Assembly (NCBI RefSeq): GCF_000017505.1
Contig: NC_009675.1
Location: 3,729,001 to 3,793,000 of the forward strand
Direction of reading: 5' to 3'
Length of the DNA: 64,000 nucleotides
Origin: Anaeromyxobacter sp. Fw109-5
Lineage (GTDB): Bacteria > Myxococcota > Myxococcia > Myxococcales > Anaeromyxobacteraceae
Shown piece after piece: positions 34,499 through 56,223 of the stretch (its first letter is position 1; each line of letters begins with the position of its first letter). The notes below the pieces were generated by a model that saw nothing but the letters and a program-made list of their open reading frames with translations, searched no databases and was not told the DNA's origin. A program made the translations under genes and the position numbers.

Positions 34499-34791
34499 GC
34501 GGCGCGATGGCGACGAACGACGAAGCCTGGGGCGAAGGTGGTCTCGAAGGACGCTCGGTCCCGCTTCGTCGCCGACATGACGAACGCGACGCGAACGGCC
34601 CGGCGGGCCCAACCTCCGCGTCCGCCCGCCGATCGGGCCTCCCGCGCGGGCGGGCGGGGGCATCACCGATCGGCGCGACGTCCGGTGTGCGGACGATCCG
34701 CGGCCTGCGCGCCGCGCGCCGCTGCGGGCCGTGAGGCCGGTCCACAGCTTTGCGAAGGCGCGGGGTGCCGGGGCCGCCGCGCGGAGGGCGC

Positions 34792-40159: not shown

Positions 40160-40351
40160 CGGTGCGTGTGGGCGGACCGTCGGGTGGGCCGCGCCACGTG
40201 CAGGAAATGTAGGCGTTGCGTCAGCCCGGGCATCTCCGCCCGACCTCACGCCTTTCGCCCGTCACCGCCGCACGGTCGGAGACGCGGGCGACGAACCCGC
40301 TCGGTTGCCGATTGGGCGCGCGCCGCACAGCTTTTCCCGAGGACCGCACAC

Positions 40352-41473
40352 ATGCACGGAAAGCTGATCCTCGTCACCGGCGGTGCCGGTTTCATCGGGT
40401 CGCACCTCGCGGACCAGCTCCTCGAGCGCGGCTACCGCGTGCGCGCGCTCGACGATCTCTCGCCGCAGGTGCACGGGGAGAACGCCCGCCGGCCCGACTA
40501 CCTCTCCGAGGGCGTCGAGCTCTTGCTCGGCGACGTGCGCGATCCGGACGCCGTGTCCCGCGCGCTGGAGGGCGTCGACGCCGTCGTCCACCTCGCGGCC
40601 CGCGTCGGGGTGGGCCAGTCCATGTACGAGGTGGAGCGCTACGTCTCGGTGAACGGCGTCGGTACGGCGGTCCTGCTCGAGGCGCTCATCAAGCGGCCGG
40701 TGGAGCGACTCGTGGTCGCATCCTCGATGTCGATCTACGGCGAGGGGCTCTACCGCGGTCCCGGGGGGGAGGTCGTGCAGGGCAGCGAGCGCACCGACGC
40801 GCAGCTCCGGGCGCGCTCGTGGGAGGTGCGCGGGCCCGGCGGCGAGCCGCTCTCGCCGGTGCCGACCCCCGAGACCAAGGCGCCGGCGCTCCCGTCGGTG
40901 TACGCGCTCACGAAGTACGACCAGGAGCGGCTCTGCCTGACGGTGGGGCGCGCGTACGGGATCCCCACCACGGCGCTCCGGTTCTTCAACGTCTACGGCA
41001 CGCGCCAGGCGCTCTCGAACCCGTACACCGGCGTGCTCGCCATCTTCGCCGCGCGGCTGCTCAACCGCCGGCCGCCGCTCGTGAACGAGGACGGGCTGCA
41101 GCGCCGCGACTTCGTCCACGTGCAGGACGTGGCCCGCGCGTGCCTGCTCGCGCTGGAGGCGCCCGAGGCGGCGGGGCTCGCCCTGAACGTGGGGAGCGGC
41201 CGGAGCTTCACGGTGCGCGAGATCGCCGAGCGGCTCGCGACGGCGCTGGGCGAGGAGCGGATCGTCCCGGAGATCACCGGGAGGTACCGCGCCGGCGACA
41301 TCCGCCACTGCTTCGCGGACGTCTCCCTCGCCCGCCGGGTGCTGGGGTACGAGCCGCAGGTCGCGTTCGACGAGGGGCTCACGGAGCTGTGCGGCTGGCT
41401 CGCGGGCCAGGTGGCGCACGACAAGGTGGCGGAGGCGAGCGCGATCCTCGCCGAGATGGGGTTGTCGCGATGA
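40352..41473 (+). CDS. NAD-dependent sugar epimerase/dehydratase (extended SDR)
   Basis: A 373-residue extended SDR: LVTGGAGFIGSHLADQLLER for NAD, catalytic Ser in SSMSIYGEG and YALTKYDQE supplying Tyr-x3-Lys. An insertion of about 40 residues between the Ser and Tyr motifs (ARSWEVRGPGGEPLSP) distinguishes it from GalE. Probably epimerises or dehydrates a nucleotide sugar such as UDP-glucuronate. It is the first of eight coupled genes; GAGG lies upstream of the ATG and the stop overlaps the next start (ATGA). Confidence 0.88.
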   Translation: MHGKLILVTGGAGFIGSHLADQLLERGYRVRALDDLSPQVHGENARRPDYLSEGVELLLGDVRDPDAVSRALEGVDAVVHLAARVGVGQSMYEVERYVSVNGVGTAVLLEALIKRPVERLVVASSMSIYGEGLYRGPGGEVVQGSERTDAQLRARSWEVRGPGGEPLSPVPTPETKAPALPSVYALTKYDQERLCLTVGRAYGIPTTALRFFNVYGTRQALSNPYTGVLAIFAARLLNRRPPLVNEDGLQRRDFVHVQDVARACLLALEAPEAAGLALNVGSGRSFTVREIAERLATALGEERIVPEITGRYRAGDIRHCFADVSLARRVLGYEPQVAFDEGLTELCGWLAGQVAHDKVAEASAILAEMGLSR

Positions 41474-42534
41474 GGGGGCGCGGTCACGTGCTGATCACCG
41501 GCGGAGCCGGGTTCATCGGCTCGAACCTCGCCGACCGGCTGGCGCGCGCGGGGGAGCGCGTCCTGCTGCTGGACGATCTCTCCCGCCCGGGAGTGGCGCG
41601 GAACCTTGCCTGGCTGCAGGCGGAGCACGGCGACCGCATCGACCTCGAGCGGGCCGACGTACGCGACGCGGCGGCGGTGGCGCGCGCTGCGCGCGAGGCG
41701 ACCTCGGTGTTTCACCTCGCGGCGCAGGTCGCGGTGACGACGAGCCTCGAGGACCCGGTCGGCGACTTCGAGGTGAACGCCCGCGGCACGCTCAACGTGC
41801 TGGAGGCGGTGCGCGGGCGGAGCGAGCCGCCGCCGCTCCTCTTCACCTCCACGAACAAGGTGTACGGCGCGCTCGAAGACCTCGCGCTCGTCCGGAACGG
41901 CGACCGCTACGGTCCGCCCGCGGGCTCCCCGTACGCGCGCGGGGTCTCCGAGGCGCGCCCGGTCGAGTTCCACAGCCCCTACGGCTGCTCGAAGGGCGCG
42001 GCGGATCAGTACGTGCTCGAGTGGGCGCGCACCTTCGGCGTGCCGGCGGTCGTCTTCCGCATGAGCTGCATCTACGGGCCGCACCAGCATGGGAACGAGG
42101 ACCAGGGCTGGGTCGCCCACCTGCTCCGCGCCGCGCTGCGCGGCGACACCGTCACCATCTATGGCGACGGCCGGCAGGTGCGCGACGTGCTCTTCGTCGA
42201 GGACCTCGTGGACGCCTTCCTGCTCGCGCGCGGGGGCGCGCGGAAGCTCGCCGGCGAGGCGTTCAACGTGGGGGGCGGGCCCGACCACACCCTGTCCCTG
42301 CTCGAGCTCGTGGATCTCATCGAGGCCCTCGACGGCGAGCGGCCGAAGGTGACCTTCTCCGGCTGGCGGGTCGCCGATCAGCGCTGGTACGTGTCCGACA
42401 CCAGCAAGCTGCGCGCCGTCACCGGCTGGGCCCCGCGGGTGCCGGTGGCGGAGGGGATCGGGCGGCTCCACGCGTGGCTCCGCGCGGCGTTCCCCGCGCC
42501 CGTCGGCGCCGCGCTCCCCGAGGCACAGCCGTGA
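41470..42534 (+). CDS. NAD-dependent epimerase, CDP-paratose 2-epimerase-like
   Basis: A 354-residue extended SDR with LITGGAGFIGSNLADRLARA, catalytic STNKVYG and YGCSKGAADQY. The segment RMSCIYGPHQHGNEDQGWVA is a hallmark of the CDP-paratose/tyvelose 2-epimerase subgroup, which inverts C2 through a keto intermediate. No CDP-sugar pathway is otherwise present, so the substrate may differ. It overlaps both neighbours by four bases within the operon. Confidence 0.88.
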   Translation: MRGRGHVLITGGAGFIGSNLADRLARAGERVLLLDDLSRPGVARNLAWLQAEHGDRIDLERADVRDAAAVARAAREATSVFHLAAQVAVTTSLEDPVGDFEVNARGTLNVLEAVRGRSEPPPLLFTSTNKVYGALEDLALVRNGDRYGPPAGSPYARGVSEARPVEFHSPYGCSKGAADQYVLEWARTFGVPAVVFRMSCIYGPHQHGNEDQGWVAHLLRAALRGDTVTIYGDGRQVRDVLFVEDLVDAFLLARGGARKLAGEAFNVGGGPDHTLSLLELVDLIEALDGERPKVTFSGWRVADQRWYVSDTSKLRAVTGWAPRVPVAEGIGRLHAWLRAAFPAPVGAALPEAQP

Positions 42535-43529
42535 CCGTATCGTCCGCGCCTTCGCGGGCCACCCTGCCCGCGCGGATGCGCGCCGCGGTGATGACCGCAC
42601 CCGGCCGCTTCGAGGTGCGAGAGGCGCCTCGGCCGGCGCCCGGGCAGGGCCAGGTGCTCGTGGCCGTCGACGGCTCGGGGATCTGCGGCTCGAACCTGCC
42701 CGTCTTCGAGGGGCGACCGTGGTTCGCCTACCCGCTCGCGCCGGGCGCGCCCGGGCACGAAGGATGGGGGCGCGTGGTCGCCGCCGGCCCGGGCGCGGAG
42801 GGCGCCTTCACCGCTGGGGCGCGCGTCGCCTTCCTCTCCGGCGCCGCCTTCGCGGAGTACGAGGCCGTGGACGCCGCCGCCGCGCTCGCGGTCCCCGCCG
42901 CGCTCGGGGATCTGCCGTTTCCCGGCGAGCCGGTCGCCTGTGGCGTGAACGTGTTCCGGCGCGCGCGGATCGTCCGCGGCGACGTAGTGGCCGTGGTGGG
43001 GATCGGCTTCATCGGCGCGGTGGTGGCCCGCCTCGCCGCAGCCGCGGGAGCGCGCGTCCTCGCCGTGGGCCGGCGCCCCTTCGCGCTCGATCTCGCCGGG
43101 GCGCTCGGGGCGGAGCCGGTGCCGTGGGGCGAGCGCGGCGCGGTCGTCGAGGAGATCCGCCGGCGCACCGGCGGCGCGCTGTGCGACGTCGCGGTCGAGG
43201 CGGTGGGCCTGCAGGCGCCCCTCGATCTCGCCTCGGACCTCGTCCGCGAGAGCGGCCGGCTCGTCGTCGCGGGGTTCCACCAGGATGGGCTCCGCACCGT
43301 GGACCTGTGCGCCTGGAACTGGAAGGGGCTCGACGTCGTGAACGGCCACGAGCGGCGGCGCGAGGTGATGATGGACGCGATGCGAGGCGCGGCCGAGGCC
43401 GTCGCCGACGGCACCCTCGACCTCGCCCGGCTCGTCACGCACGCCTTCCCGCTGGAGGCGATCGGAGAGGCGTTCGCGGCGCTGCGTGATCGGCCGGACG
43501 GGTTCCTGAAGGGGGTCGTGAGACCATGA
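42531..43529 (+). CDS. medium-chain dehydrogenase (zinc-type alcohol/sugar dehydrogenase)
   Basis: A 332-residue MDR protein. GSGICGSNLPVFEG and PGHEGWGRVV give the catalytic-zinc region; the structural zinc loop is absent, and VVGIGFIGAVVARLAAAAGA binds the nucleotide. The short form and neighbours suggest oxidation of a sugar hydroxyl, as in the inositol and aminocyclitol pathways where an MDR enzyme and a Gfo/Idh/MocA partner work in sequence. GTG start overlaps the upstream stop (GTGA); its stop overlaps the next ATG. Confidence 0.87.
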   Translation: MTVSSAPSRATLPARMRAAVMTAPGRFEVREAPRPAPGQGQVLVAVDGSGICGSNLPVFEGRPWFAYPLAPGAPGHEGWGRVVAAGPGAEGAFTAGARVAFLSGAAFAEYEAVDAAAALAVPAALGDLPFPGEPVACGVNVFRRARIVRGDVVAVVGIGFIGAVVARLAAAAGARVLAVGRRPFALDLAGALGAEPVPWGERGAVVEEIRRRTGGALCDVAVEAVGLQAPLDLASDLVRESGRLVVAGFHQDGLRTVDLCAWNWKGLDVVNGHERRREVMMDAMRGAAEAVADGTLDLARLVTHAFPLEAIGEAFAALRDRPDGFLKGVVRP

Positions 43530-44542
43530 GCACCGCGCCCGCACGGGCGGCAGCGACGCGCCCGCGGCTCGGCTTCCTCGGCGTCGGCTGGATCGGCCGC
43601 CACCGCATGGAGGCGGTGGCGAAGAGCGGCGCCGCCGAGGTGGCGGCGGTCGCCGATCCCGTCGGGGACGCGGCGCGGGAGGCGGCGCAGTCCGCGCCCG
43701 GCTGCGCGGTCGCGGCGTCGCTCGACGAGCTCCTCGCCCTTCCGCTCGACGGGATCGTCATCGCCACGCCGAGCGCGCTCCACGTGGAGCAGGCGGTGCG
43801 CGCGCTCGAGCGCGGCCTCGCGGTGTTCTGCCAGAAGCCGCTCGGGCGTACCGCGGCGGAGGCCCGGCGCGCGGTCGACGCCGCGCGCGCGGCCGATCGG
43901 CTCCTCGCCGTCGATCTCTCCTACCGCCACGTGCGCGGCGTCCCTGAGGTGCGGCGCCTCGTGCAGGAGGGGGCCCTCGGGCGCGTCCACGCGGTGAACC
44001 TGGCCTTCCACAACGCCTACGGCCCGGACAAGGCCTGGTTCTACGACGTCCGCCAGTCGGGCGGCGGCTGCGTGATGGACCTCGGCATCCACCTCGTCGA
44101 CCTCTCCCTGTGGGTGCTGGGGTTCCCGAAGGTGCTCGACGTCGCGAGCCGCGTCACCTCGAAGGGCGCCCCGCTCGCCGGCCGCGACGCCGTGGAGGAC
44201 TGCGCGCAGGCGCTCCTCCTGCTCGAGGGCGGCACCGCCGCGCAGCTCGCCTGCTCGTGGCGCATCTCCGCCGGGCGCGCCTGCGCCATCGAGGCCGCGT
44301 TCTACGGCACCGAAGGCGGCGCTGCACTGCGCAACGTGGACGGCTCGTTCTACGACTTCACGGTCGAGCGCTACCGCGGCACGGCGCGCGAGGTGCTCGC
44401 CACGCCGCCCGACGCCTGGGGGGGACGCGCCGCCGTGGCCTTCGCCGAGGCGCTCGCCGCCGGGCGCGGCTTCGACGCCGAGGTGGAGGGGCTCGTCCGC
44501 GTCGCGGAGGCGCTGGACGCGATCTATGAGCGGGCACGATGA
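43526..44542 (+). CDS. Gfo/Idh/MocA family oxidoreductase
   Basis: A 338-residue oxidoreductase: nucleotide motif FLGVGWIGRHRME, the catalytic Lys in FCQKPLGRT (usually EKP, here QKP) and the DLGIHLVDLSLW His/Asp in the alpha/beta C-terminal domain. It oxidises or reduces sugars or cyclitols with NAD(P). It directly follows the MDR dehydrogenase, with which it probably forms a two-step redox conversion. The next gene starts 17 bases before its stop. Confidence 0.9.
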   Translation: MSTAPARAAATRPRLGFLGVGWIGRHRMEAVAKSGAAEVAAVADPVGDAAREAAQSAPGCAVAASLDELLALPLDGIVIATPSALHVEQAVRALERGLAVFCQKPLGRTAAEARRAVDAARAADRLLAVDLSYRHVRGVPEVRRLVQEGALGRVHAVNLAFHNAYGPDKAWFYDVRQSGGGCVMDLGIHLVDLSLWVLGFPKVLDVASRVTSKGAPLAGRDAVEDCAQALLLLEGGTAAQLACSWRISAGRACAIEAAFYGTEGGAALRNVDGSFYDFTVERYRGTAREVLATPPDAWGGRAAVAFAEALAAGRGFDAEVEGLVRVAEALDAIYERAR

Positions 44543-45674
44543 GGCACCCCGGGGCGCGGCCCGCGGGCCGCGCGTCCTCCTGACGGCGGACACCGTGGGC
44601 GGCGTCTTCGCCTACGCGGCGGAGCTCTGCGCCGCGCTCGCGCAGCGCGGCTGCGCCGTCGCGCTCGCGACGCAGGGGCGCCCGCTCTCCGCGGACCAGC
44701 GGGCGGAGCTGGCGCGTGTTCCCGGCCTCGAGGTGCACGAGGGGACGGGCAAGCTCGAGTGGATGCAGGATCCCTGGGACGACGTCGCGCGGGAGGGAGA
44801 GCGGCTCCTCTCGATCGCGCGGCGGTTCCGGCCGGACGTCGTGCACCTCAACGGCTACGCGCACGGCGCGCTGCCGTTCGGGGTGCCGAAGGTGGTCGTG
44901 GCCCACTCCTGCGTCCTCTCCTGGTTCGAGGCGGTGCGCCACGCGCCCGCGCCGCCGTCGTTCGACCGCTACCGCCTCGAGGTGCGCCGCGGGCTCGACG
45001 GCGCCGACGCGGTGGTGGCGCCGACGCGGGCCATGCTCCGCGCCCTCGAGCGCCACCACGGCAAGGTCCGGCGCGGGCTCGTCATCGCGAACGGCCGCGC
45101 CCCCGAGCGCTACCCGCCGCGCCCGAAGGAGCCGTTCGTGCTCTGCGCCGCGCGGCTGTGGGACGAGGCGAAGGGGGCAGCCACGCTCGACGCGGCCGCA
45201 GGCCGCCTCGCCTGGCCGGTGCTGCTCGCAGGCGATGAGATGAGCCCGGACCTCGCCCACCCCGGCGCCTCGGCGCCGCGCCACGCGCGCCCCCTGGGAC
45301 GGCTCGCGCCCGACGCGCTCGCCGTGTGGTACGGCCGCGCCTCGATCTATGCGCTCCCCGCACGGTACGAGCCCTTCGGCCTCTCCGCGCTGGAGGCGGC
45401 GCTCGCCGGCTGCGCCCTGGTGCTCGGCGACGTCCCGAGCCTCCGTGAGGTCTGGCTCGGCGCCGCGGCCTTCGTCCCGCCCGGGGACGTGGAGGCGCTC
45501 GCCTCGACGCTCGCGGGGATCGTCCACGACGCGCCGGCGCGCGCCGAGCTCGGGCGCCAGGCGCGGCGGCGCGCCTTGCTCTTCGGGCGCGAGCGGATGG
45601 CGGAGCGCTACCTCGCGACGTACGGCGGCCTGCTCGCGCGGGCGGAGGAGGGGGCGGTCCCGTGCGCGTCGTGA
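44526..45674 (+). CDS. glycosyltransferase family 4
   Basis: A 382-residue GT4 enzyme: N-terminal VLLTADTVGGVFAYAAELCA, VHLNGYAHGALPFG, and the donor-binding E-x7-E in YEPFGLSALEAAL near residue 290, followed by GDVPSLREVW. It should retain anomeric configuration. Unlike the four CgeB-like enzymes it belongs to the classical group. It overlaps the upstream gene by 17 bases and the downstream one by 13, consistent with one transcript and coupled translation. Confidence 0.9.
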   Translation: MSGHDEAPRGAARGPRVLLTADTVGGVFAYAAELCAALAQRGCAVALATQGRPLSADQRAELARVPGLEVHEGTGKLEWMQDPWDDVAREGERLLSIARRFRPDVVHLNGYAHGALPFGVPKVVVAHSCVLSWFEAVRHAPAPPSFDRYRLEVRRGLDGADAVVAPTRAMLRALERHHGKVRRGLVIANGRAPERYPPRPKEPFVLCAARLWDEAKGAATLDAAAGRLAWPVLLAGDEMSPDLAHPGASAPRHARPLGRLAPDALAVWYGRASIYALPARYEPFGLSALEAALAGCALVLGDVPSLREVWLGAAAFVPPGDVEALASTLAGIVHDAPARAELGRQARRRALLFGRERMAERYLATYGGLLARAEEGAVPCAS

Positions 45675-46792
45675 CGTTCTGCCACTCGCTCCTCTCCGAC
45701 TGGAACCACGGGAACGCCCACTTCCTGCGGGGCGTCGCGACCGAGCTCGTCGCGCGCGGCCACGCGGTGCGCGCCTTCGAGCCAGCCGGAGCCTGGTCGC
45801 TCCTGAACCTGGTCGCCGACGCCGGCCAGGCGGCGGTCGAGGACGCGCGCCGCGCCTACCCGACGCTCGACGTCGCGCGCTACGACCCCGCCACGCTCGA
45901 CGTCGACGCGGCGGTGGACGGGGCGGACCTCGTCCTCGTGCACGAGTGGAACGACCCCGAGGTGGTGCGTCGCGTCGGCGATCACCGCCGGCGCTCGCGC
46001 CGGCCGTACCTGCTCCTCTTCCACGACACGCACCACCGCGCCGTCACCGCCCCCGAGGAGATGGCGGCCTACGACCTCTCCGGCTACGACGGCGTGCTCG
46101 CCTTCGGCGAGGCGCTGCGCGAGGTCTACGTCGCGCGCGGCTGGGCGCGGCGCGCCTTCACCTGGCACGAGGCGGCGGACGTGCGGGTGTTCCGGCCGCT
46201 GGAGGCGCCGCCGGAGGGCGACCTCGTCTTCGTGGGGAACTGGGGGGACGACGAGCGGACGCGCGAGCTCGCCGAGTTCCTGCTCGAGCCGGTGAAGGCG
46301 CTCCGCCTGCGCGCGCGCGTGCACGGCGTGCGCTACCCGCCGGAGGGGCTCGCCGCGCTCTCGCAGGCCGGCGCGGCGTACGGCCGGTACCTGCCGAACC
46401 ACCGCGTCCCAGAGGTGTTCGCGCGCCACCGCGTGACGGTGCACGTGCCGCGCGGCCCGTACGCCCGGGCCCTGCGCGGCATCCCCACCATCCGCCCGTT
46501 CGAGGCGCTCGCCTGCGGGATCCCGCTCGCCTCCGCGCCGTGGGAGGACGCCGAGGGGCTCTTCGCCCCGGGCGAGGACTTCCTCGTCGCCCGCACCGGC
46601 GACGAGATGCGCGCCCACCTGCGCGCCGTGCTCGAGGATCCCGCGCTCGCGGCCTCGCTCCGCGCGCGCGGCCTCGCGGCCATCCGCGCGCGCCACACCT
46701 GCGCGCACCGGGTCGACCAGCTGCTCTCCATCCATGCGCGCCTCGCGGGCGAGGCCCTGGCCCACGCCCCCGACCCGGGGAGGCAAAGATGA
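45662..46792 (+). CDS. CgeB-like glycosyltransferase
   Basis: A 376-residue fourth CgeB-type enzyme: VVTFCHSLLSDWNHGNAHFL at the start, then VHEWNDPEVV, GDLVFVGNWGDDERTRELAEF in the linker and RPFEALACGIPLASAPWEDA in the C-terminal nucleotide-sugar domain, ending ARHTCAHRVDQLL. GTG start at 45662 lies inside the GT4 gene. The distinct WxDDERT linker motif separates it from the other three, suggesting a different donor. Confidence 0.87.
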   Translation: MRVVTFCHSLLSDWNHGNAHFLRGVATELVARGHAVRAFEPAGAWSLLNLVADAGQAAVEDARRAYPTLDVARYDPATLDVDAAVDGADLVLVHEWNDPEVVRRVGDHRRRSRRPYLLLFHDTHHRAVTAPEEMAAYDLSGYDGVLAFGEALREVYVARGWARRAFTWHEAADVRVFRPLEAPPEGDLVFVGNWGDDERTRELAEFLLEPVKALRLRARVHGVRYPPEGLAALSQAGAAYGRYLPNHRVPEVFARHRVTVHVPRGPYARALRGIPTIRPFEALACGIPLASAPWEDAEGLFAPGEDFLVARTGDEMRAHLRAVLEDPALAASLRARGLAAIRARHTCAHRVDQLLSIHARLAGEALAHAPDPGRQR

Positions 46793-47556
46793 ACCGAAGC
46801 TCGCTGTCGCGTCAGGAGATCGAGGCGCGGGTCCAGGCGCTCGGACCCTGGTTCCACAACCTCGACCTCGACGGCGTGAAGACGGCGCCGCAGCACTTCC
46901 TGGGCGACTACCCGGCCGTCGCCTGGGAGCGGGTGTCGCACGTGCTGCCCGAGCGGCTCGACGGCCGGACGGTGCTGGACATCGGCTGCAACGCCGGCTT
47001 CTTCTCGCTGGAAATGGCCCGCCGCGGCGCGGCCCGCGTGGTGGGGGTGGACTCGGATCCCCGCTACCTCGCGCAGGCGCGGCTCGCCGCGGAGGTGAGC
47101 GGCCTCGACGTCGAGTGGCGCGAGCTCTCCGTCTACGACGTCGCTCGGCTCGGCGAGAAGTTCGACGTGGTGCTGTTCATGGGCGTGCTCTACCACCTCC
47201 GCCACCCGCTGCTCGCGCTCGACCTCGTGCGCGAGCACGTCGCCCGCGACACGCTCGTCTTCCAGTCGATGATCCGCGGCGCGCAGGGACGGCTGCAGGT
47301 GGCGCCGGACTACCCGTTCTCCGAGACGGAGATCTTCGACCACCCCTCGTGGCCGAAGCTGCACTTCGTCGAGCACGAGTACGCCGGCGACTGGACCAAC
47401 TGGTGGGTGCCGAACCGGCCCTGTGTCGAGGCGATGCTGCGGAGCGCGGGGTTCGCGCCCGAGCCCGTCCCGAGCAGCGAGATCTACGTGTGCCGCGTGA
47501 CGGAGCGCACGGCGCGCGCCGGGGCGGTCTACCCGGCGGAGGGGATGCGGCCGTGA
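46789..47556 (+). CDS. class I SAM-dependent methyltransferase (CmoB-like, TIGR04290 type)
   Basis: A 255-residue methyltransferase: VLDIGCNAGFFSLEMARRG is motif I, VVGVDSDPRYL motif II and FDVVLFMGVLYHLRHPLLAL motif III. The N-terminal PWFHNLDLDGVKT and the later DWTNWWVPNRPCVEAML match the CmoB-related subgroup named TIGR04290 by recollection, which recurs in saccharide clusters of unknown product. It would methylate, or carboxymethylate, a sugar hydroxyl. It is coupled by ATGA and GTGA overlaps on both sides. Confidence 0.87.
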   Translation: MNRSSLSRQEIEARVQALGPWFHNLDLDGVKTAPQHFLGDYPAVAWERVSHVLPERLDGRTVLDIGCNAGFFSLEMARRGAARVVGVDSDPRYLAQARLAAEVSGLDVEWRELSVYDVARLGEKFDVVLFMGVLYHLRHPLLALDLVREHVARDTLVFQSMIRGAQGRLQVAPDYPFSETEIFDHPSWPKLHFVEHEYAGDWTNWWVPNRPCVEAMLRSAGFAPEPVPSSEIYVCRVTERTARAGAVYPAEGMRP

Positions 47557-48437
47557 TCGAGGCGGTGATGCTCTGGAACGAGCCGAACAACCTCTCTCAC
47601 TGGAACTTCCACCTCGATCCCGAGTGGAGGACGTTCTCGGCGATGGCGCGGGTCGCCGGCGCCGCGGTGCGCGCGGTCGCGCCTGGGCTCACGCGCGTCC
47701 TGGGCGGCACCTCGCCCATCGACCCGGCCTTCTTCGCGCTCCTCGCCTCGCACGGCGCGCTCGAGGAGGTGGACGCCGTCGCGGTGCACGGGTTCCCGCT
47801 CGACTGGAACCACTGGCAGATCCACGAGTGGCCGGCGCGGCTCGAGGAGGTGCGCGTCGTCGTCCCCCTCCCCGTCTGGATCTCCGAGGTGGGCGTCTCC
47901 TCCTTCGGCGCCGAGGAGGTGCAGGAGTGGGGGCTCCGCCGGACGGCGGCGCTCGTCCTCGGCAAGGCGCCGCGCGTGCACTGGTACAGCCTCATGGACC
48001 TCCCGCGCGCCTGGCCCGCCACGACGCGTCACCGCGAGGCGGAGGGCTCGTCCTATTACCGGCACTTCTACATGGGGCTCATCCGCGAGGACGGCACGCC
48101 CAAGCCGGCGCTGCGCGCCTTCGGCGACTTCGTCCCCGACCTCGGCCTGTGCCAGTGGTTCCACTTCGAGGATCACCGCCTCGAGGCGGCGGTGCGCTGG
48201 ATGAAGGAGCTCGGGGTGCGGAAGCTCCGCACCGGCCTCTCCTGGGCGGACTCCTTTTGCCCGAACGCGCTCGCCTGGTTCGACCGGCAGATGAAGGCGC
48301 TCGAGCCCTTCGACGTGACGCTCACCTACTGCTTCACGCCGGAGCATCGCGGCCTGGAGGCGCACCACACCTCTCCGCCGCAGCGGATCGAGGAGTACGC
48401 CGAGTTCTGCGCGACCATGACCCGGCGCTATGCCTGA
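47553..48437 (+). CDS. TIM-barrel glycosidase-like protein, apparently circularly permuted
   Basis: A 294-residue protein. It opens with MLWNEPNNLSHWNF, the beta-4 acid/base motif of GH39/GH5-like barrels, and has the nucleophile strand WISEVGVSSFG near residue 110 and WYSLMDL near 145. Residues from about 205 (WFHFEDHRLEAAVRWMKELG, RKLRTGLSWADSF, DVTLTYCFTPEH) look like beta strands 1-3, which in ordinary enzymes come first; the end CATMTRRYA would normally lead into the WNEPNN strand. Both acid residues are present, so activity is possible. No signal peptide: a cytoplasmic role in the pathway is implied. Last gene of the operon. Confidence 0.75.
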   Translation: MIEAVMLWNEPNNLSHWNFHLDPEWRTFSAMARVAGAAVRAVAPGLTRVLGGTSPIDPAFFALLASHGALEEVDAVAVHGFPLDWNHWQIHEWPARLEEVRVVVPLPVWISEVGVSSFGAEEVQEWGLRRTAALVLGKAPRVHWYSLMDLPRAWPATTRHREAEGSSYYRHFYMGLIREDGTPKPALRAFGDFVPDLGLCQWFHFEDHRLEAAVRWMKELGVRKLRTGLSWADSFCPNALAWFDRQMKALEPFDVTLTYCFTPEHRGLEAHHTSPPQRIEEYAEFCATMTRRYA

Positions 48438-48521
48438 TCCGGGGCGCTCCGAGCCGGCGGCGCAGGGTCGTCCCCGCGCCCCCGCAGACCGATGCGGGCG
48501 CGCCCGCCGAGGCGGCTCGCC

Positions 48522-49205
48522 CTAGCGCCCGCGCCCGCGCCCGCCTCCGCGCGACCCGCCGCGCGAGGACGACCCGCCGCGGGACTTCGAGCCCGCGGCC
48601 GACGACCGGCGCGCCGCGCCGCCGCGCCGCCCCGAGCTCCGCGCCGCCGTCCGTGCCGGCGCCTTCCGCGCGGCGCGCCCCGCGGTCGCGCGCTTCGCGC
48701 CTCCGCGCGAGGATGCGGCGCTGCGACCCCCCACCTTCGGCGTCCGGCCTCCCGCCTTCCGGCTGCGGGCCGCCCCCGCCTTCCGCGTCCCGGCTCCGGC
48801 TCCCGCCTTCCGGTCGCGGGCCGCGCCCGCGCGCGACCCCGCCGGCCGCGCGCCGGCCCGGCCTCGGCTGCCACCGCGCGCCGATTTCCGGGAGGCCTTG
48901 CTCTCCCCGCGCGATCGCGCCGCGGCGGTCTCACGCGCGACCAGCTTGTTGAAGTTGCTCCGCTCCCCGCCGCGGGTCGTGTCCTGGTAGATGAAGGCGA
49001 GCCCGGACTCGTCGAACTTCCGGAACCACTCGTCCCACCCGATCCGCGCGAGCTTCCCCTCGCCGGACCAGCCCGGGAAGTCGATCCGGATCATCCCGGT
49101 CTCCTCCCCGGCGCGCTCGGTCCCCCGCACCTCGGCGGGCCACCCGCCGCGCTCCTCGACCCAGCGGCGGATCTCCTCGTGATCGGTCGTCGTCTTGTTC
49201 GCCAT
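48522..49205 (-). CDS. small DUF-type domain fused to a histone-H1-like basic tail
   Basis: A 227-residue protein. Residues 1-95 (DHEEIRRWVEERGGWPAEV, IRIDFPGWSGEGKLARI, WFRKFDESGLAFIYQD) match a short domain often mislabelled 1,4-alpha-glucan branching enzyme in databases; it is too small to be one. Residues 100-227 are almost entirely Arg, Lys, Ala, Gly and Ser, with SRKAGGR-like repeats and a final run of RGG/GRGR. Such tails bind nucleic acids (AlgP, histone H1-like). No enzymatic function is supported. ATG at 49205 begins the domain. Confidence 0.72.
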   Translation of the reverse strand: MANKTTTDHEEIRRWVEERGGWPAEVRGTERAGEETGMIRIDFPGWSGEGKLARIGWDEWFRKFDESGLAFIYQDTTRGGERSNFNKLVARETAAARSRGESKASRKSARGGSRGRAGARPAGSRAGAARDRKAGAGAGTRKAGAARSRKAGGRTPKVGGRSAASSRGGAKRATAGRAARKAPARTAARSSGRRGGAARRSSAAGSKSRGGSSSRGGSRGGGRGRGR

Positions 49206-49309
49206 TCCCGCACCCTCGCGCGCGCAGCGCGCGCCACGGGCACCGCGCGCGCGGCGCCCTCGCCAGACGCTAGGTACGGCGGCCGCTCCCTGCACCGGGA
49301 GCGCCGTCC

Positions 49310-51010
49310 CTACTCGATCCGCTCCACGAGGGCGGCGACGTGGCGCGCGAACGGCGGCACGTCCAGCGGGAGCGGGCCGGACGCGTCCCGCTCCTCGACC
49401 GCGATCACCTCGCCGGAGACGTCCTCGACCCAGGTGACGCGCCAGCGGCCGGGCGCAATCCCGGCGAGCGTCAGGCGCGCCCCTTTCACGCGCCCCCCGT
49501 AGCCGGGACGGGGAGCGAGGAGCCACACCGCGGCGGCCCGCTCGCCTCCGAGCGCGAGCGCCCGCAGGCCGGGCGCGCGCCGCACCGCGGGTTCGGGCGC
49601 GGGCGCGAGCGGCCCCCGCGCCTCCGCGCGGCGCAGGAACGCCGCGAGCGTGCGGAAGTGGCGCGCCCGCGCCGGCGTCATCGGCTCGTCCGAGTCCTCG
49701 GTGAAGGGCGGCGCGGAGTGGGAGAGCACCCCGGCGCCGGCGAAGGTCGCCGCCCAGATCCCGACGTGCGTGTGGTCGTGCTCGGGCTTCGCATCGCCGC
49801 CCCAGCCGAACTCGCCGATCAGCACCGGCTTCCCGTAGCGCGCCGTGTCGCGCGTCGTCTCGACGAGCGCCTCGGCGAGGTCGTGCACGTCGTGCACGTC
49901 CGGGCCGTAGCGGTGCCACTGGACGATGTCGCAGGCGGCGGACGCCCACCAGGCGCGCTCGTCCTCCTCCACGTTCCAGTGGAGCCCCACCGGGCCCGCG
50001 GTGACCGGGTGGCCGTACGGGTCCTCCGCGCGCCAGGTGCGCGCGAGGTCCTCCGCCCAGGGGATCCAGTGATCCTCCGGGATGGCGCCGTCCCACTCCG
50101 GCTCGTTCAGGAGGTCGATCGCGAGCAGGGCGGGCGACGCGCCCCAGCGTGCGAGCACGTAGCGGAGCCGCGCGCGCGCCGCCTCGCGGGCGCGGGGGTC
50201 GAGGAAGAAGTCGGTGTTCCCCGCCGCGGGCCCGCCGCGCGCGGCGGAGTAAGGGTTCTCCTCCCACCCCTTCCACGCGTCGCCGGGCGTGAACCCGATC
50301 GCGAAGACGGAGAGGACGACCTTCACGCCGTGCGCCTCCGCCGCCGCGAAGATCGCGTCGTAGCGCGCCGCCGCGGCCTCGTCGAACGCGCCGAGCACGG
50401 GCTCGAGGCAGCCGGGGTTCGGCATCGTGCCCGCCCGGCCGCATGCGGTGAAGACGAACACGCGCAGCGCGTTCATCCCGTCCGCCGCCATGCGCGCGAC
50501 GTAGTCCGCGGGGGAGAGGCCGTCCGACCAGGTGGGGTCGTAGACGTTGAAGCGGTTCTCGCCGAGCGGGCGGAAGGGGCGGCCGTCCTCGGTCCGGAGC
50601 GTGCCGCCCGAGACGATCACCTGCCCCGCCAGCCCGCGGTCCTCCGCCATCACCTCGCCGCGCGCCACCTCGGCGGCGGCCGCGCCCTCGCCGGAGCGGG
50701 CCACCCAGCGGTGGCGCCCCGGCTCGCGGGGCCGGAACCGCGCCGCCCAGCCCCCCGGGACCGGGAACGCCGGCACGTGGATTCGCGCGCCGGAGGGGGC
50801 GAGCACCTCGGCGCGCACCGGCGCGCCGGCGGGGACGGCGAGCCGCAGCTCGACCACGCCGTTCACGGCGGCCTCGCGGCCGCCGGCAGCGTCCGCGCCC
50901 GGCCGGACCGGCGCCCGCGCGCAGCCGAGCGCGAGCGCGGCGGCGAGCATCGCGGCCGCGGCGGAGCGCGGCCCGGTGCAGTGGAGACGTCGTGTCGTCA
51001 CGCCGCTCAC
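49310..51010 (-). CDS. lipoprotein glycoside hydrolase with DUF5060-like domain (GH5/GH-A clan)
   Basis: A 566-residue secreted glycosidase. An N-terminal signal with LALGC suggests a lipoprotein. Residues 45-125 form a DUF5060-like beta domain; the TIM barrel (about 140-460) has the acid/base Glu in LLNEPEWDG and the nucleophile Glu in LIGEFGWGG; a C-terminal beta domain (about 500-566) follows. It would cleave a beta-linked polysaccharide at the cell surface. The GTG start overlaps the ABC transporter stop (GTGA), so the two work together. Confidence 0.87.
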   Translation of the reverse strand: MSGVTTRRLHCTGPRSAAAAMLAAALALGCARAPVRPGADAAGGREAAVNGVVELRLAVPAGAPVRAEVLAPSGARIHVPAFPVPGGWAARFRPREPGRHRWVARSGEGAAAAEVARGEVMAEDRGLAGQVIVSGGTLRTEDGRPFRPLGENRFNVYDPTWSDGLSPADYVARMAADGMNALRVFVFTACGRAGTMPNPGCLEPVLGAFDEAAAARYDAIFAAAEAHGVKVVLSVFAIGFTPGDAWKGWEENPYSAARGGPAAGNTDFFLDPRAREAARARLRYVLARWGASPALLAIDLLNEPEWDGAIPEDHWIPWAEDLARTWRAEDPYGHPVTAGPVGLHWNVEEDERAWWASAACDIVQWHRYGPDVHDVHDLAEALVETTRDTARYGKPVLIGEFGWGGDAKPEHDHTHVGIWAATFAGAGVLSHSAPPFTEDSDEPMTPARARHFRTLAAFLRRAEARGPLAPAPEPAVRRAPGLRALALGGERAAAVWLLAPRPGYGGRVKGARLTLAGIAPGRWRVTWVEDVSGEVIAVEERDASGPLPLDVPPFARHVAALVERIE

Positions 51011-52776
51011 GCCGCCATGGGCAGGAGCCCGCGCGCCTGCTTCTCGACGAGGCTCGCGTAGTAGCCGCCGCGCGCGAGGAGGTCCGCGTGCCGGCCCTCC
51101 TCGACGATGCGCCCCTCGCGCAGCACCACGATCCGGTCGGCGTCGACGACGGTGGACAGCCGGTGCGCGATGACGAGCGTGGTCCGGCCGCGCGTGGCGC
51201 GGTCGAGCGCCTGCTGGACGAGCTGCTCCGACTCGGCGTCCAGCGCGGAGGTGGGCTCGTCGAGGATCACGATCGGCGGCGCCTTGAGGAGCGTGCGGGC
51301 GATGGCGACGCGCTGCCGCTCGCCGACCGACAGGCGGCTGCCCCGCTCGCCGACGACGGTGTCGTACCCGTCGGGCAGACGCTCGATGAACTCGTGCGCG
51401 TTGGCGTCGCGGGCCGCCTGCTCGATCTCGGCGCGCGAGGCGCCCGGCCGGCCGTACGCGATGTTGGCGAGCACCGACTCGTTGAAGAGGAGGGAGTCCT
51501 GGAAGACGACCGCGATCTGCTTGCGGAGCGAGACCTGCTTCAGCCGGCGCACGTCGATGCCGTCCACGCGCACGACGCCCTCGGTGGGATCGTAGAACCG
51601 CTGCACGAGCGCCACGAGGGTGGACTTGCCCGAGCCCGAGGGGCCCACGATGGCGAGCCGCTCGCCCGCGCGCACGCGCAGGTCGATCCCGTCGAGGAGC
51701 GGCGGACCCTCCGGCTCGTAGGCGAAGCGGACGCCGCTCCACTCGACGTCTCCGCGCAGCCCGATCACCTCGCGCGCGTCCGGCGCGTCGCCGAGGTGGT
51801 CGTGCGCGTCGAGGATGCCGTACACCTCCTCCGCGGAGACGCGCGCGGTGTTGACGGTCTTGTAGATGCCGGAGAGGCCGAGCACCGGGCCGAAGAGGCC
51901 GCCCACGTACCCGAGGAAGGCGACGAGCGTGCCGACCGTCACCTCGCCGCGCGCGACGAGCACGCCGCCGAGGGCGAGCGCCGCGACGCGCGCCGCGATC
52001 TGCACGAGGTTCTGGGCCGCGCCCACGCCCGAGTCGACCCCCACGCCGCGGATGACCACCTCGTTCGCCGAGTTGACCTCGTCGAGGAAGCGCTTCTTCT
52101 CGGCGGCCTCCATCGTGAAGCTCTTCACCGTCACGATCCCGGAGAGCACCTCGTTGAACCGCGAGTAGATGCGCGCCCAGCGCTGGAGCAGGCTCCGCTC
52201 GCGGCGCGTCTGCATGGGGGCGGCGAGCCGCGCGATGAGCGCGGGCGCCGGAGCGAAGACGAGGACGAGCAGCGCGAGACGCCACTCGAGCCGCGCCATC
52301 ACCGCGACGGAGAGCGCGAGGTAGACGGCGGCGGGCACCGCGTTGAAGGCGATCTCGGAGAGCGCGCCCACGAGCCCCTGGATGGAGCGATCGAGCCTCG
52401 TCATCACCGCGCCGACCCCCTCCGCTCGGTGGAAGGTGAGGGGCAGCCGGTGCAGCCGCTCGACGGTCGCCTCGGTCAGCCTGAAGTGGATGCCGATCCG
52501 CGTGCGCCAGGTGAGCCAGTTGGAGACGCCCTGCAGCGCCTCGCGCAGCAGGCCCAGCACGACGAGGGCGAGGACGCCCTCCGCGAACCCGCGCGCCGCG
52601 TGGCCACCGGCGAGCCCGTCGAAGACGTGGCGGAGCGCCAGCGGCTCGGCGGCGTTCAGCGCCGCCAGCGCGATGGCGATGGCGAGGATGGCGGAGATGG
52701 CGCCGCGGGCGGGGTCGAGAAACTCGGTCGCACGCCGCAGGCCCGCACGGCGCCTCGGAGGGTGAGGGGCGGTCAC
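51007..52776 (-). CDS. ABC transporter, fused permease and ATPase (exporter type)
   Basis: A 589-residue ABC half-transporter: six membrane helices (about 30-310), then an ATPase with Walker A GPSGSGKST, Q loop VVFQDSLLFNES, signature LSVGERQR (variant of LSGGQ), Walker B IVILDEPTSALD and H loop AHRLST. It most resembles lipid or saccharide exporters of the MsbA/CydC-like group and presumably acts as a homodimer. GTG at 52776 is preferred; the upstream frame is non-conserved. Coupled to the lipoprotein glycosidase, it is the only export machine in the saccharide region. Confidence 0.88.
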   Translation of the reverse strand: MTAPHPPRRRAGLRRATEFLDPARGAISAILAIAIALAALNAAEPLALRHVFDGLAGGHAARGFAEGVLALVVLGLLREALQGVSNWLTWRTRIGIHFRLTEATVERLHRLPLTFHRAEGVGAVMTRLDRSIQGLVGALSEIAFNAVPAAVYLALSVAVMARLEWRLALLVLVFAPAPALIARLAAPMQTRRERSLLQRWARIYSRFNEVLSGIVTVKSFTMEAAEKKRFLDEVNSANEVVIRGVGVDSGVGAAQNLVQIAARVAALALGGVLVARGEVTVGTLVAFLGYVGGLFGPVLGLSGIYKTVNTARVSAEEVYGILDAHDHLGDAPDAREVIGLRGDVEWSGVRFAYEPEGPPLLDGIDLRVRAGERLAIVGPSGSGKSTLVALVQRFYDPTEGVVRVDGIDVRRLKQVSLRKQIAVVFQDSLLFNESVLANIAYGRPGASRAEIEQAARDANAHEFIERLPDGYDTVVGERGSRLSVGERQRVAIARTLLKAPPIVILDEPTSALDAESEQLVQQALDRATRGRTTLVIAHRLSTVVDADRIVVLREGRIVEEGRHADLLARGGYYASLVEKQARGLLPMAA

Positions 52777-52804
52777 CGGTCCGGAACGCCCCGGGTGCCG
52801 CCGG

Positions 52805-53416
52805 TCATTCCCTCCGGGCCCCTCCCGCCGGCCCGCCGGGCGGCGCCGCGGCCGGGGGCGGGTCATCCGGGACGCCCTGCTCCTGGACGCGCTCCATCTC
52901 GTTGAGGACGGCCTCCGGCCTCACGTCGCGCTCCAGCTCCGCGAGGTCCTCTGCCTGGGCGTCCTCGATCCCCATGCGCGCCGCGATCGCCGCGACCAGC
53001 CGCACCAGGCGCGTCACCTCGTGCTCGGAGAGCAGGCTGATCTGCAGATCCAGGTCCGCGCGCTTCTCCGCCACCGCCGCCATGCGGTTCTGCATGATGA
53101 GCACGAAGGTGGAGAGGAAGATCGCCTCGACGGAGGCGGCGGTGGCGAGCTTCACGAAGTCGCGGTCGAACCGGGGTACGCCGGGCACGAGCCCTGCGTT
53201 CACCGCGATCCAGAGCGCGACGACGGCGAGGTGGATCCAGACGAAGGTCATGGACCCCGAGAAGCGCCCGATCGCCGCCGCGACCCGGTCGCGCCGCCGC
53301 TCGCTCTGCTCCTCCTCGCGCCGGCGGGCGAGCAGCACCGAGATGTTCCGCGCGACGACGCCCGCCAGCCCCGGGCGCTCTCCCGCACCCCCTCGCTCGC
53401 CCGCCGCCACGCGCAT
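52805..53416 (-). CDS. DUF1003 membrane protein
   Basis: A 203-residue protein with two membrane helices and the complete DUF1003 signature: ITR-type amphipathic start, FVWIHLAVVALWIAVNAG, then LATAASVEAIFLSTFVLIMQ and NRMAAVAEKRADLDLQIS. Function unknown; the conserved cytoplasmic part is acidic. ATG at 53416 starts the conserved region, and the long upstream frame is not used. It ends 29 bases before the ABC transporter start, so co-transcription is plausible. Confidence 0.88.
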   Translation of the reverse strand: MRVAAGERGGAGERPGLAGVVARNISVLLARRREEEQSERRRDRVAAAIGRFSGSMTFVWIHLAVVALWIAVNAGLVPGVPRFDRDFVKLATAASVEAIFLSTFVLIMQNRMAAVAEKRADLDLQISLLSEHEVTRLVRLVAAIAARMGIEDAQAEDLAELERDVRPEAVLNEMERVQEQGVPDDPPPAAAPPGGPAGGARRE

Positions 53417-53559: not shown

Positions 53560-54723
53560 CTACTTCGCAGCGACCACGCCGGTCGGGACGGGCCGAGCCC
53601 GGCGTGGGAGGATCACCTCGAAGACCGTGAGGTCGCTCTCCGGCGTGCGGACGGAGATGTCTCCCCCGTGAGCGCGGACGATCTCCCGCGCGATGAACAG
53701 CCCCAGGCCGAGTCCTCTCTCGCGGGTGGCGCTCGAAGCGGTCCGCCTGAACGGCTCGAACAGTGTCGGGAGCACGTCGCTGGAGATGGTCCCGAAGTTC
53801 CGGACCCGTGCCCGAACCAGCCCGCCGTCCGTACCCTCCAGCTCGACCGTCGTCGTCGTCCCCCTCGTTCCGTGCTGCACCGCGTTCGCAGCGAGGTTCG
53901 ATAGAACCTGTGCAAGGCGGTCCGGGTCCCATTCACCGGACAGGTCCCCGGACCCGCGGACCTCGATGGTGGCGTGCGGGTTCGCTGCCTCGATCTCCTG
54001 GAGCACCGGGCGGGCGATGTCGTCGAGGTGGGCAGGACGAAGCTGCAGCTCGATCCCGCTGCCCTGCCGCACGCGCGCGAAGTCGAGCAGCTGCTCGATC
54101 ATCCGGGCCATCCGCTCGGCGGAGTTCAGGATGCGGCCGGCAGGACGAAGCGCCGCCGGATCTTGTGAACCTCGCACGATGGCGTCTGCCGAGAGCTTGA
54201 TGGCAGCGAGCGGCGTCCGGAGATCGTGACCGAGGATGCTCGCGAACAGCTCGCCGAGCTGGACCGCGCGCTCGAGCTCGTGGTGCAGGTCGCGGATCTG
54301 ATACTGCCGGCGTCGCGCTCGAACCGCCGAGCGGACCGCGCTCAGGAACAGGGGAACCGGCAACGGTCGTTGCAGGAGCATGACGTTCGCGCGCTCCAGG
54401 AGCGCAACCGCCGGATGCGCGTGAGGCGCCCGCCTCGACAGCGGGAACGTCAAGAGCAGGATCGGCAGGTCCGACCAGTGCTCCTGCGCGTCGAGCGCCG
54501 ACAGCAACGGCTCCGTGCCGCCGTCGTTCAGCCCTTCCTGAGCGACGACGACGGCCCCTGCCCCGCGCCTCATCTCCTGGACGAGCCGGTCGACGTCCTG
54601 GCAGCTCGTGCACTGCAGCGACTCACCGGCCGCGAGCTGCTCGGACATCATGTCCGCGTCCCTGCCCGTGGGGGCGAGGATCAGGACGCGCCGTTCCGTC
54701 GCGTCATCGCTCAGAGGAGCCAC
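53560..54723 (-). CDS. histidine kinase with degenerate receiver domain
   Basis: A 387-residue kinase. Residues 1-125 have the alternating pattern of a receiver domain (RVLILAPTGRDADMMSEQLA, LLSALDAQE), but the strand normally ending in the phospho-Asp reads VVVAQEG, so it is probably inactive in phosphotransfer. Residues 150-220 hold the phosphoacceptor motif ASILGHDLRTPLAAIKLSAD, and the ATPase domain has NLAANAVQHGTRG and GLGLGLFIAREIVRAHGG. It overlaps the KaiC-like gene by 20 bases on the same strand, implying that the two proteins act together. Confidence 0.87.
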   Translation of the reverse strand: MAPLSDDATERRVLILAPTGRDADMMSEQLAAGESLQCTSCQDVDRLVQEMRRGAGAVVVAQEGLNDGGTEPLLSALDAQEHWSDLPILLLTFPLSRRAPHAHPAVALLERANVMLLQRPLPVPLFLSAVRSAVRARRRQYQIRDLHHELERAVQLGELFASILGHDLRTPLAAIKLSADAIVRGSQDPAALRPAGRILNSAERMARMIEQLLDFARVRQGSGIELQLRPAHLDDIARPVLQEIEAANPHATIEVRGSGDLSGEWDPDRLAQVLSNLAANAVQHGTRGTTTTVELEGTDGGLVRARVRNFGTISSDVLPTLFEPFRRTASSATRERGLGLGLFIAREIVRAHGGDISVRTPESDLTVFEVILPRRARPVPTGVVAAK

Positions 54724-56188
54724 GCTTTGCTCGCAGCGCGTCGGGATCGAGGATCTGCGGTATCCCGGAGAAGATTCCCTGGAACTTGAGGAGCGGCTCG
54801 CCGACGACCACGCCGGATGGCTCGAAGCGCAGCTCGCGGATCGTCCGCTCGTGACCCCCGGTCCGCTTCTTCACGACCGAGAGCGCCTGCCGGACCTCGC
54901 CGGCGACCTCGAAGTACCGGAACAGCAAGACGGTGTCCGCGATGTAGCTGATGTTGAACGGCGACTCCGAGGAGGCAACGAACCCGTGCTGCGCCAGCGT
55001 GAGCAGCGTGGCGACGCCCTTCTCCGAGAGATACGCGAGCAGCTCGTGAAGATGCGCTGCGAGGAACCGCTCCCCGGGCATCGCGTTGATGTAGCCGTTC
55101 AAGCTGTCGAGCACGACGATGCGATGATCCTCCTCGACCAGCTGCCGGACGCTGTCGGACAGCTGCCCCGGACTCATCTCGGCCGGGTCGACGGCGCGCA
55201 CCTCCACGGTTCCGGCTTCGACGTGGCTCCGCAGCGGTATACCGAGCCCGGTCGTCCGGATGAGCAGGTTCGTCGGGCTCTCGTCGAAGCACAGGATCGC
55301 ACCCTTCTCGCCGCGCGACGCGGCACGGGCCACGAACTGCGCCGCGATCGTCGACTTACCCGTTCCCGCGGGGCCGACGAGGACGGTGCTCGTGCCCCGG
55401 TCGAGGCCGCCCCCGAGGAGCCTGTCGAGCTCCGCGATCCCGCTGAGGACCTCGCTGCTCGAGTGCATCGTGCGGTGTTGCGAGGCGACGAGCCGCGGGA
55501 AGACGTGCACGCCTCCTGCGCCGATCTCCATGTCGTGGTAGCCGCCGACGCTCTGTGACGCCCTCAGCTTCCGGACGCGGAGCCGACGTCGATCGCCACC
55601 GTAGTCGGGGGAGAGCTGCTCGAGCTCCAGGACCCCGCTGACCAGTGTCTCGGCGACGACTCCCTGCCCAGGTTCGGTGTCGACGTCGATGAGGAGCCCG
55701 GTGCAGTTCCTGCCGGCGATCTGGTCGCCCAGCCTCAGCAGCGCGCGACGGTAACGGAACGAGTCGTCCGCGAGCAGGCGGATCTCCGACAGGGAGTCGA
55801 GGACCAACCGGCTCGGCTGAACGCGATCGACCTGCGCCAGGATCTCCTTCGAGATCTCCTCCAGCTCCACCTCGTGAGGGCTGAACACCGTGTACGCGCC
55901 GCGCTGCTGCTCTGCTTCTCCCCGCCGACGCATGTCATGGACTTCGACGCCGTCCGTGCTCCAGCCGAACGAGCTCGCGAGCGCGTCGACCTGCCCCCTC
56001 GTCTCCGACAGGCCCAGGTACAGGCACTTCTCGCCGCGTCTCGCGCCCTCGAGCAGGAACTGCAGGCCGATCGTGGTCTTCCCCGTCCCAGGTGCGCCTT
56101 TCAGCAGATACAAGGAGTTTCGTATCAACCCACCGTTCAGGATCGGGTCGAGACCGCGCACGCCGGTCTGGACACGCTCGTTTTCCAT
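54704..56188 (-). CDS. KaiC-like double-domain RecA ATPase
   Basis: A 494-residue protein of the KaiC/RadA superfamily with two RecA domains: Walker A GAPGTGKT at residues 31-38 and GPAGTGKS near 272, each with its own Walker B strand (RLVLDSLSE and RIVVLDSLN). In cyanobacterial KaiC the second domain is phosphorylated on an adjacent Ser-Thr; here the aligned segment reads NISYIADT, so Ser is kept but Thr is replaced by Tyr. No KaiA or KaiB gene is near. It is co-transcribed with a histidine kinase, as in many bacterial KaiC-like systems of unknown output. GGAGG precedes the ATG. Confidence 0.9.
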   Translation of the reverse strand: MENERVQTGVRGLDPILNGGLIRNSLYLLKGAPGTGKTTIGLQFLLEGARRGEKCLYLGLSETRGQVDALASSFGWSTDGVEVHDMRRRGEAEQQRGAYTVFSPHEVELEEISKEILAQVDRVQPSRLVLDSLSEIRLLADDSFRYRRALLRLGDQIAGRNCTGLLIDVDTEPGQGVVAETLVSGVLELEQLSPDYGGDRRRLRVRKLRASQSVGGYHDMEIGAGGVHVFPRLVASQHRTMHSSSEVLSGIAELDRLLGGGLDRGTSTVLVGPAGTGKSTIAAQFVARAASRGEKGAILCFDESPTNLLIRTTGLGIPLRSHVEAGTVEVRAVDPAEMSPGQLSDSVRQLVEEDHRIVVLDSLNGYINAMPGERFLAAHLHELLAYLSEKGVATLLTLAQHGFVASSESPFNISYIADTVLLFRYFEVAGEVRQALSVVKKRTGGHERTIRELRFEPSGVVVGEPLLKFQGIFSGIPQILDPDALRAKRGSSER

Positions 56189-56223
56189 GATGGTGCGCCT
56201 CCGTAGTAGCTACGCGCGGGTCG

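Follow-up and report, generated by a model that had tools for sequence, protein, structure and literature searches.

Histone-H1-like basic arms in bacteria have so far been described for a few model proteins. Bacterial H1-like proteins include Hc1, Hc2 and BpH1, and HU, which constitutes a defined Pfam family, carries basic tails in Mycobacterium, Streptomyces (HupS) and Deinococcus. In AlgP and PhaF of Pseudomonas, according to one report, a folded part chooses the cargo while an H1-like arm grips DNA; the histone-H1-like arm of AlgP is C-terminal and is reported to bind DNA and to be needed for the spacing of polyphosphate granules (PMC9239181).

Here, we analysed a window, a stretch of 64,000 nucleotides, from the genome of Anaeromyxobacter sp. 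Fw109-5 (5,277,990 bases in a single contig). Read from the letters of the window, a gene on the minus strand with its ATG at 49205 and a TAG at 48522 encodes a protein of 227 residues with the organization given below. The frame is open for 640 amino acids, with no stop upstream of this ATG, and homology with relatives in the family alignment begins at the ATG of 49205.

48921..49205, minus strand: conserved folded domain, residues 1-95 (family alignment and AlphaFold2)
48525..48920, minus strand: basic low-complexity arm, residues 96-227, predicted to be disordered (composition, charge, pLDDT and orthologues)
48522..48524, minus strand: stop codon TAG (read from the sequence)

A preliminary description of this DNA had proposed a small domain joined to a long histone-like Arg/Gly/Ser/Ala tail that makes up over half of the protein and ends in RGG/GRGR repeats, and this anatomy was borne out in each part. 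An acidic domain of 95 residues (computed pI 5.2) is followed by a basic tail of 132 of the 227 residues, in which A (31), R (31), G (31), S (20) and K (9) together account for 122 of the 132 positions and the acidic residues are a single E and a single D. The computed charge of the tail is +37.8, with a pI of 12; it holds six RGG motifs, and its C-terminal end reads GRGRGR. AlphaFold2, run with 60 sequences, predicted the domain with a mean pLDDT of 82.7 and the order E-H-E-E-E-H-E-E, while in the arm, from residue 101 on, the block means of pLDDT were about 43-59, and no secondary structure was predicted past residue 98. From this model we infer that the arm is probably disordered in the cell as well.

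The preliminary description had also raised the prospect of a tail that is absent from relatives and arises from a frameshift. This objection falls, because a basic tail rich in A/R/G/S/T/K follows the domain in all nine other orthologues of the bacterial family to which Fw109-5 belongs. Orthologues were present in 10 of the 24 genomes of this family, its own included, at E below 1e-38, and the alignment of the ten domain sequences has a mean column identity of 81%. The tail reaches a stop codon in five of the nine orthologues, after 119-180 residues, and in the other four the contig ends inside the tail, leaving 9 to 56 tail residues visible. Four draft Anaeromyxobacter assemblies break at this point (L010/L028, L013/L029, L015/L030 and L016/L032), and the tail sequence itself seems to break them. 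Between the tails of G002 and G005 we counted 26 synonymous and 26 non-synonymous codon differences over 138 aligned codons; third positions held 33 of the 61 mismatches, and all five indels were multiples of three. A frameshift or assembly artefact was therefore rejected, the tail being in frame with a conserved domain, kept in 9/9 orthologues and biased towards third-position change; the in-frame continuation, the orthologue tails and the codon-like substitutions identify it as real coding sequence. The same orthologue comparison shows that the arm is kept in composition and not in sequence. A similarity search of the genome with the tail matched only the tail itself, a kind of search that tails of similar composition could escape.

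The domain is unnamed by any family library that we searched, although it is widespread. Even with hits up to E 1 allowed, the window protein had no counterpart in Pfam or NCBIfam, nor did it match any PHROG, PADLOC model or PDB sequence, and a HU or histone domain in particular was absent from its Pfam, NCBIfam and significant PDB sequence matches. A profile of 60 relatives gave no PDB chain with an E below 0.69. In a Foldseek search with the predicted domain no PDB entry reached E 0.001, a missing match that in itself proves nothing, and calpain-3 was the only VIA row (Z 2.2, rmsd 4.5, 62 aligned). Weak matches to Prim-Pol (PF09250) were found in 31 of the 60 relatives, with a best E of 2.3e-4, the window member having none at E 0.1, and weak matches to the Lsr2 DNA-binding domain (PF23359) in 6 of the 60, with a best E of 0.032. 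The E-H-E-E / E-H-E-E order gave us the idea of an internal duplication, which was dropped when hhalign of the two halves yielded nothing. The claim that the domain is commonly misannotated was not confirmed in the annotated records of relatives that we opened, which read 'hypothetical protein'; one further record carries no annotation. The name 1,4-alpha-glucan branching enzyme, which we presume to be one in use for the domain, was rejected: the absence of any Pfam or NCBIfam match leaves the window protein without a glycoside hydrolase catalytic domain. Within the part of the literature searched, we found no paper tied to the domain.

A scan of a genome collection recovered relatives of the domain on at least 227 contigs from many phyla (Acidobacteria, Actinobacteria, Planctomycetes, Bacteroidetes, Chloroflexi, Verrucomicrobia, a cyanobacterium and others), most of them tailless, and the best 80 of these 227 relatives formed our locus set. 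Plasmids added 178 records, with Alphaproteobacteria, a Xanthomonas and the haloarchaeon Halocatena among them; phages gave no match. The distribution is patchy: of 195 genomes in the window's own phylum 17 gave strong matches, as did 6 of 247 in the phylum of L037, an Acidobacteria genome; the order of L037 has the domain in 43 of 249 genomes, and the Dyadobacter family of L045 in 33 of 222. Fw109-5 itself holds a second, divergent copy (L024, G000:C1:4479022-4479216) that is about 40% identical and lacks a basic tail. In two further myxobacterial genomes, G110 and G082, a second segment of folded appearance comes after the domain (L116, around 1501-1737, and L120) and presumably resembles DUF2188. 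A relative from a Bacillota MAG (L087) has an in-frame stop within the domain, which is preceded by an Arg/Ala/Gly-rich arm.

We scored as arms stretches of at least 30 residues in which K+R made up at least 18% and exceeded D+E, and in which at least 70% of residues were R, K, G, S, A, P, T, Q or N. Among the best 80 of the 227 relatives, 16 had C-terminal and 5 had N-terminal arms. In the order of L037, 21 of the 29 loci examined (from 44 matches) bore C-terminal arms and one an N-terminal arm, while in the Dyadobacter family the arms were N-terminal in 20 of 29 loci (from 33 matches) and C-terminal in none; five of six matches were examined in the phylum of L037, and L149 and L151, the centre genomes' own matches, were not counted, these genomes being represented by L037 and L045. 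Repeated basic low-complexity arms at the C- or N-terminus of one domain are what is new here. C-terminal arms are borne by Anaeromyxobacter, by other myxobacteria (48-98 residues in G078, G080, G082, G083, G103 and G121) and by Acidobacteriota; N-terminal arms by the Dyadobacter family, a single Verrucomicrobia genome and a single Dehalococcoidia genome (L061 and L077 are single genomes each, and the N-terminal arm of L165 depends on the chosen start). None of the actinobacterial loci in the set has an arm. Since many distant relatives are without a tail, we regard it as a lineage-specific addition. On a domain tree of 91 columns and 90 rows, the state of the C-terminal arm changes at least seven times, a rough count on a poorly resolved tree with 50 of its 87 inner branches open (L029, L056, L087 and L091 were set to unknown arm state, and L116 and L120 were left out).

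The suggestion in the preliminary description of a nucleoid-organising or RNA-binding protein agrees with the charge of the arm. One reading of this kind is a nucleoid compactor, a protein that would itself bridge DNA and condense it in the manner of histone H1, the domain serving for dimerisation or as an end module. The length and charge of the arm agree with it, as do H1-like Lys/Ala repeats in the relatives L041, L173, L177 and L183 and a protein (G518/L164) with two domains, a basic linker between them and a basic arm after them. However, the domain is the conserved part and is mostly armless, and most genomes lack it even inside a single phylum (the 17/195 and 6/247 given above); we regard a compactor as rather unlikely.

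As a control for arm frequency, we used neighbouring ORFs. Arm-like C-termini were found in 3 of 139 of these against 37 of 143 family rows (16/80 plus 21/63), a clear excess in a Fisher test, with the caveat that the control and family criteria differ slightly in length and that the 143 rows hold duplicates (at least L160=L035, L172=L096, L165=L044 and L191=L053). Arm-like N-termini were present in 13 of the 139 neighbouring ORFs, so that the N-terminal comparison with controls is unusable; these are probably for the most part start-codon artefacts, the first start having been taken in GC-rich DNA. Because of this poor control, we base claims on N-terminal arms on the Dyadobacter family, whose loci have a GC of 0.37-0.53, and on codon evidence. 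Third positions held 295 of 480 mismatches in eight pairs of N-terminal arms and 171 of 322 in C-terminal arms; 54 of the 81 indels in arm pairs were multiples of three, and most of the others, which may be alignment artefacts, fell in three C-terminal pairs.

In 21 arms spanning a locus GC of 0.54-0.75, the K+R fraction lay between 0.20 and 0.40 and hardly tracked GC (r = 0.19), whereas S/T fell (r = -0.55) and G rose (r = 0.48) with it. Judged by composition, charge thus seems to be kept while the filler residues drift. Arg-leaning arms (K share 0.08-0.53) stand beside Lys arms (0.80-1.00) within the order of L037, where they are Arg/Ser-rich or Lys/Ala-rich, and the N-terminal arms of the Dyadobacter family are Lys/Ala/Thr/Ser-rich. 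This interchange of Arg and Lys, together with a basic fraction nearly independent of GC, points to selection that may act on the charge of the arm rather than on RGG motifs. Five Acidobacteria loci (L035, L037, L048, L170 and L175) have a strongly acidic block beside basic stretches, which gives a mixed-charge arm, and in L175 D+E exceeds K+R.

Two other readings of the arm can be weighed against these data. The first, an RNA-binding RGG protein that acts in condensates or as an RNA chaperone and for which Arg and Gly content is essential, matches the RGG motifs, the GRGRGR end and the predicted disorder of the window tail. RGG is nonetheless not kept among armed relatives, many of whose Lys-rich arms hold 0-5 Arg, and Lys-rich arms almost without Arg are found in L041, L173, L176, L184, L186 and the Dyadobacter family; we consider this reading very unlikely. 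The second is neutral low-complexity drift, in which slippage in GC-rich DNA leaves an inert tail that is tolerated. The tail has a GC of 0.75, 0.91 and 0.91 at codon positions 1, 2 and 3, arm length is highly variable, and a candidate motif from the other myxobacterial tails, PRSEAART, was rejected when only L014 passed a held-out shuffle test (p 0.0003; p 0.07 for the window tail), all of which drift would allow. It sits poorly, however, with basic arms at loci of 0.37-0.57 GC, with the third-position bias and with a charge that is kept while filler residues change, and it appears to us highly improbable.

The gene lies in a large glycan cluster (window positions 34735-52866) with several PF13524 glycosyltransferases, which we take to be CgeB-like, and two of its neighbours are the following.

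46780..47556, plus strand: neighbouring methyltransferase of the TIGR04290 family (366.8 bits, cut-off 300)
47610..48437, plus strand: glycosidase-like gene, convergent with the domain gene (inferred from its sequence)

The domain gene is 1.4 kb from the methyltransferase gene. The putative glycosidase gene, with no NCBIfam match, owes its label to its own sequence and to an annotated beta-xylosidase beside a TIGR04290 methyltransferase in the locus of a relative; relatives 77-80% identical to it occur in all five long loci of the own family (L124-L128). Further away, an ORF apart from the domain gene (54707-56209) is ATPase-like by sequence and presumably KaiC-like. The cluster comprises CgeB-like and family-4 glycosyltransferases, a nucleotidyltransferase, an epimerase, a Gfo/Idh oxidoreductase and the TIGR04290 methyltransferase, for which a search by name in the part of the literature covered found no paper. 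Counterparts of these genes lie beside the orthologue in 5/5 long family loci (the Anaeromyxobacter loci L028-L032, which duplicate genomes included otherwise, were left out of the comparison), and similar sets occur in Planctomycetota, Xanthomonas and Bradyrhizobium. In two Planctomycetota loci the domain gene stands between an oxidoreductase and a glycosyltransferase gene on the same strand, among relatives of the cluster genes; on a Xanthomonas plasmid an armless domain gene lies inside an operon, between glycosyltransferases and the methyltransferase; in Bradyrhizobium it is near the methyltransferase; and on a Tistrella plasmid it is near the methyltransferase and adjoins Ku and LigD. An ATP-dependent DNA ligase domain was matched by 3 of 150 neighbour ORFs (150 of 154 adjacent ORFs were kept) and by none of ten large neighbours scanned. 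In a Sinorhizobium meliloti relative, a stress sigma-factor promoter was rejected, with two pattern matches in 12 kb, a number reached in 12 of 200 shuffles, and neither directly upstream; guessed locus tags for this relative found no confirmation in the portion of the literature searched.

Such surroundings would suit a protein accessory to a set of glycan or stress genes, with an arm that would bind polysaccharide or polyphosphate as its acidic polymer instead of DNA. Among the 195 genomes of the phylum, 17 have the domain, 17 the methyltransferase and nine both, six of these nine within 4 kb; the Xanthomonas operon and the two Planctomycetota loci tell in the same direction, and AlgP is reported to associate with polyphosphate granules (PMC9239181). 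The co-occurrence is, however, carried by one family: methyltransferase genomes have the domain in 7/7 cases inside it and in 2/10 outside (hypergeometric p 0.055), and outside it only two of seven domain genomes have the methyltransferase. Most of the 75 loci beyond the family (L033-L107) are also without cluster genes: L040 and L042 hold seven to eight, L082 two and L057 a nucleotidyltransferase stretch and an ABC transporter, while the remainder have at most a distant epimerase or transporter. Since armless members share the same context, it does not explain the arm. We judge the accessory reading unlikely and treat the glycan-cluster and Ku/LigD surroundings as a suggestive lead on the domain.

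The sequence comparisons suggest that the arm may fasten the domain to a negatively charged polymer, be it DNA or another. By analogy with described proteins, we infer polyanion binding with DNA as its main target. In the resulting two-part tether, the conserved domain of about 90 residues would fold and bind a partner or ligand, and the disordered arm, at about +38, would grip polyanions irrespective of their sequence, with chromosomal DNA as the most likely target, and thereby keep domain and partner on the nucleoid. An arm acquired independently of the domain, at the N- or the C-terminus and with Arg or Lys as the basic residue, favours such a generic anchor over an RGG-specific role on RNA. 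Against the tether, most relatives are armless, so the domain works without one; the domain is acidic and without a nucleic-acid-binding family match; the genome has a very high GC content, which readily produces R/A/G runs; and the arms of L035, L037 and L048 contain an acidic block, the arm of L175 being acidic on balance. We consider the tether the best of these readings and about as likely as not. A broader proposal, which we put forward only tentatively and with some doubt, is a new family of chromatin-like proteins built on a so far undescribed, widespread domain of about 90 residues from bacteria and some archaea. Evolution would repeatedly have added H1-type arms to it, Arg- or Lys-based and at one end or the other, and these would tether a single conserved activity, possibly one in stress survival or the synthesis of glycans, to either the nucleoid or polyphosphate. 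The acquisition of arms by one domain, at each of its ends and in several phyla, amounts to a natural experiment, in which what stays constant (charge) and what varies (end, length, Arg/Lys, filler) can reveal the purpose of the arms, and it would provide an entry point to a widespread domain without a name in the libraries searched.

Compared with known systems, the TIGR04290 glycan cluster adjoins the domain gene in the Anaeromyxobacter family and encloses it on the Xanthomonas plasmid, whereas most relatives examined lie outside such a cluster. Like tailed HU, the window protein joins a folded domain to a basic low-complexity arm at an end that depends on lineage, but it matches no Pfam family. 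It resembles the eukaryotic H1 tail and Hc1, Hc2 and BpH1 in arm composition, charge and predicted disorder, with Lys/Ala/Pro repeats in L041, L173 and L177; in contrast to these proteins, its arm is joined to an unrelated conserved domain. AlgP (AlgR3) and PhaF would be its closest working analogues, likewise combining a folded N-terminal part with a long basic C-terminal arm of H1 type, which in the window protein is predicted to be disordered. They differ in that the N-terminal domain of AlgP is predicted to be alpha-helical (PMC9239181) and that of the window protein alpha/beta. The folded part of PhaF is a phasin, whereas the window protein has no Pfam family at E up to 1; the arms there are built of KPAA repeats and here of Arg/Gly/Ser/Ala; and the relatives of the window protein also bear their arms at the N-terminus.
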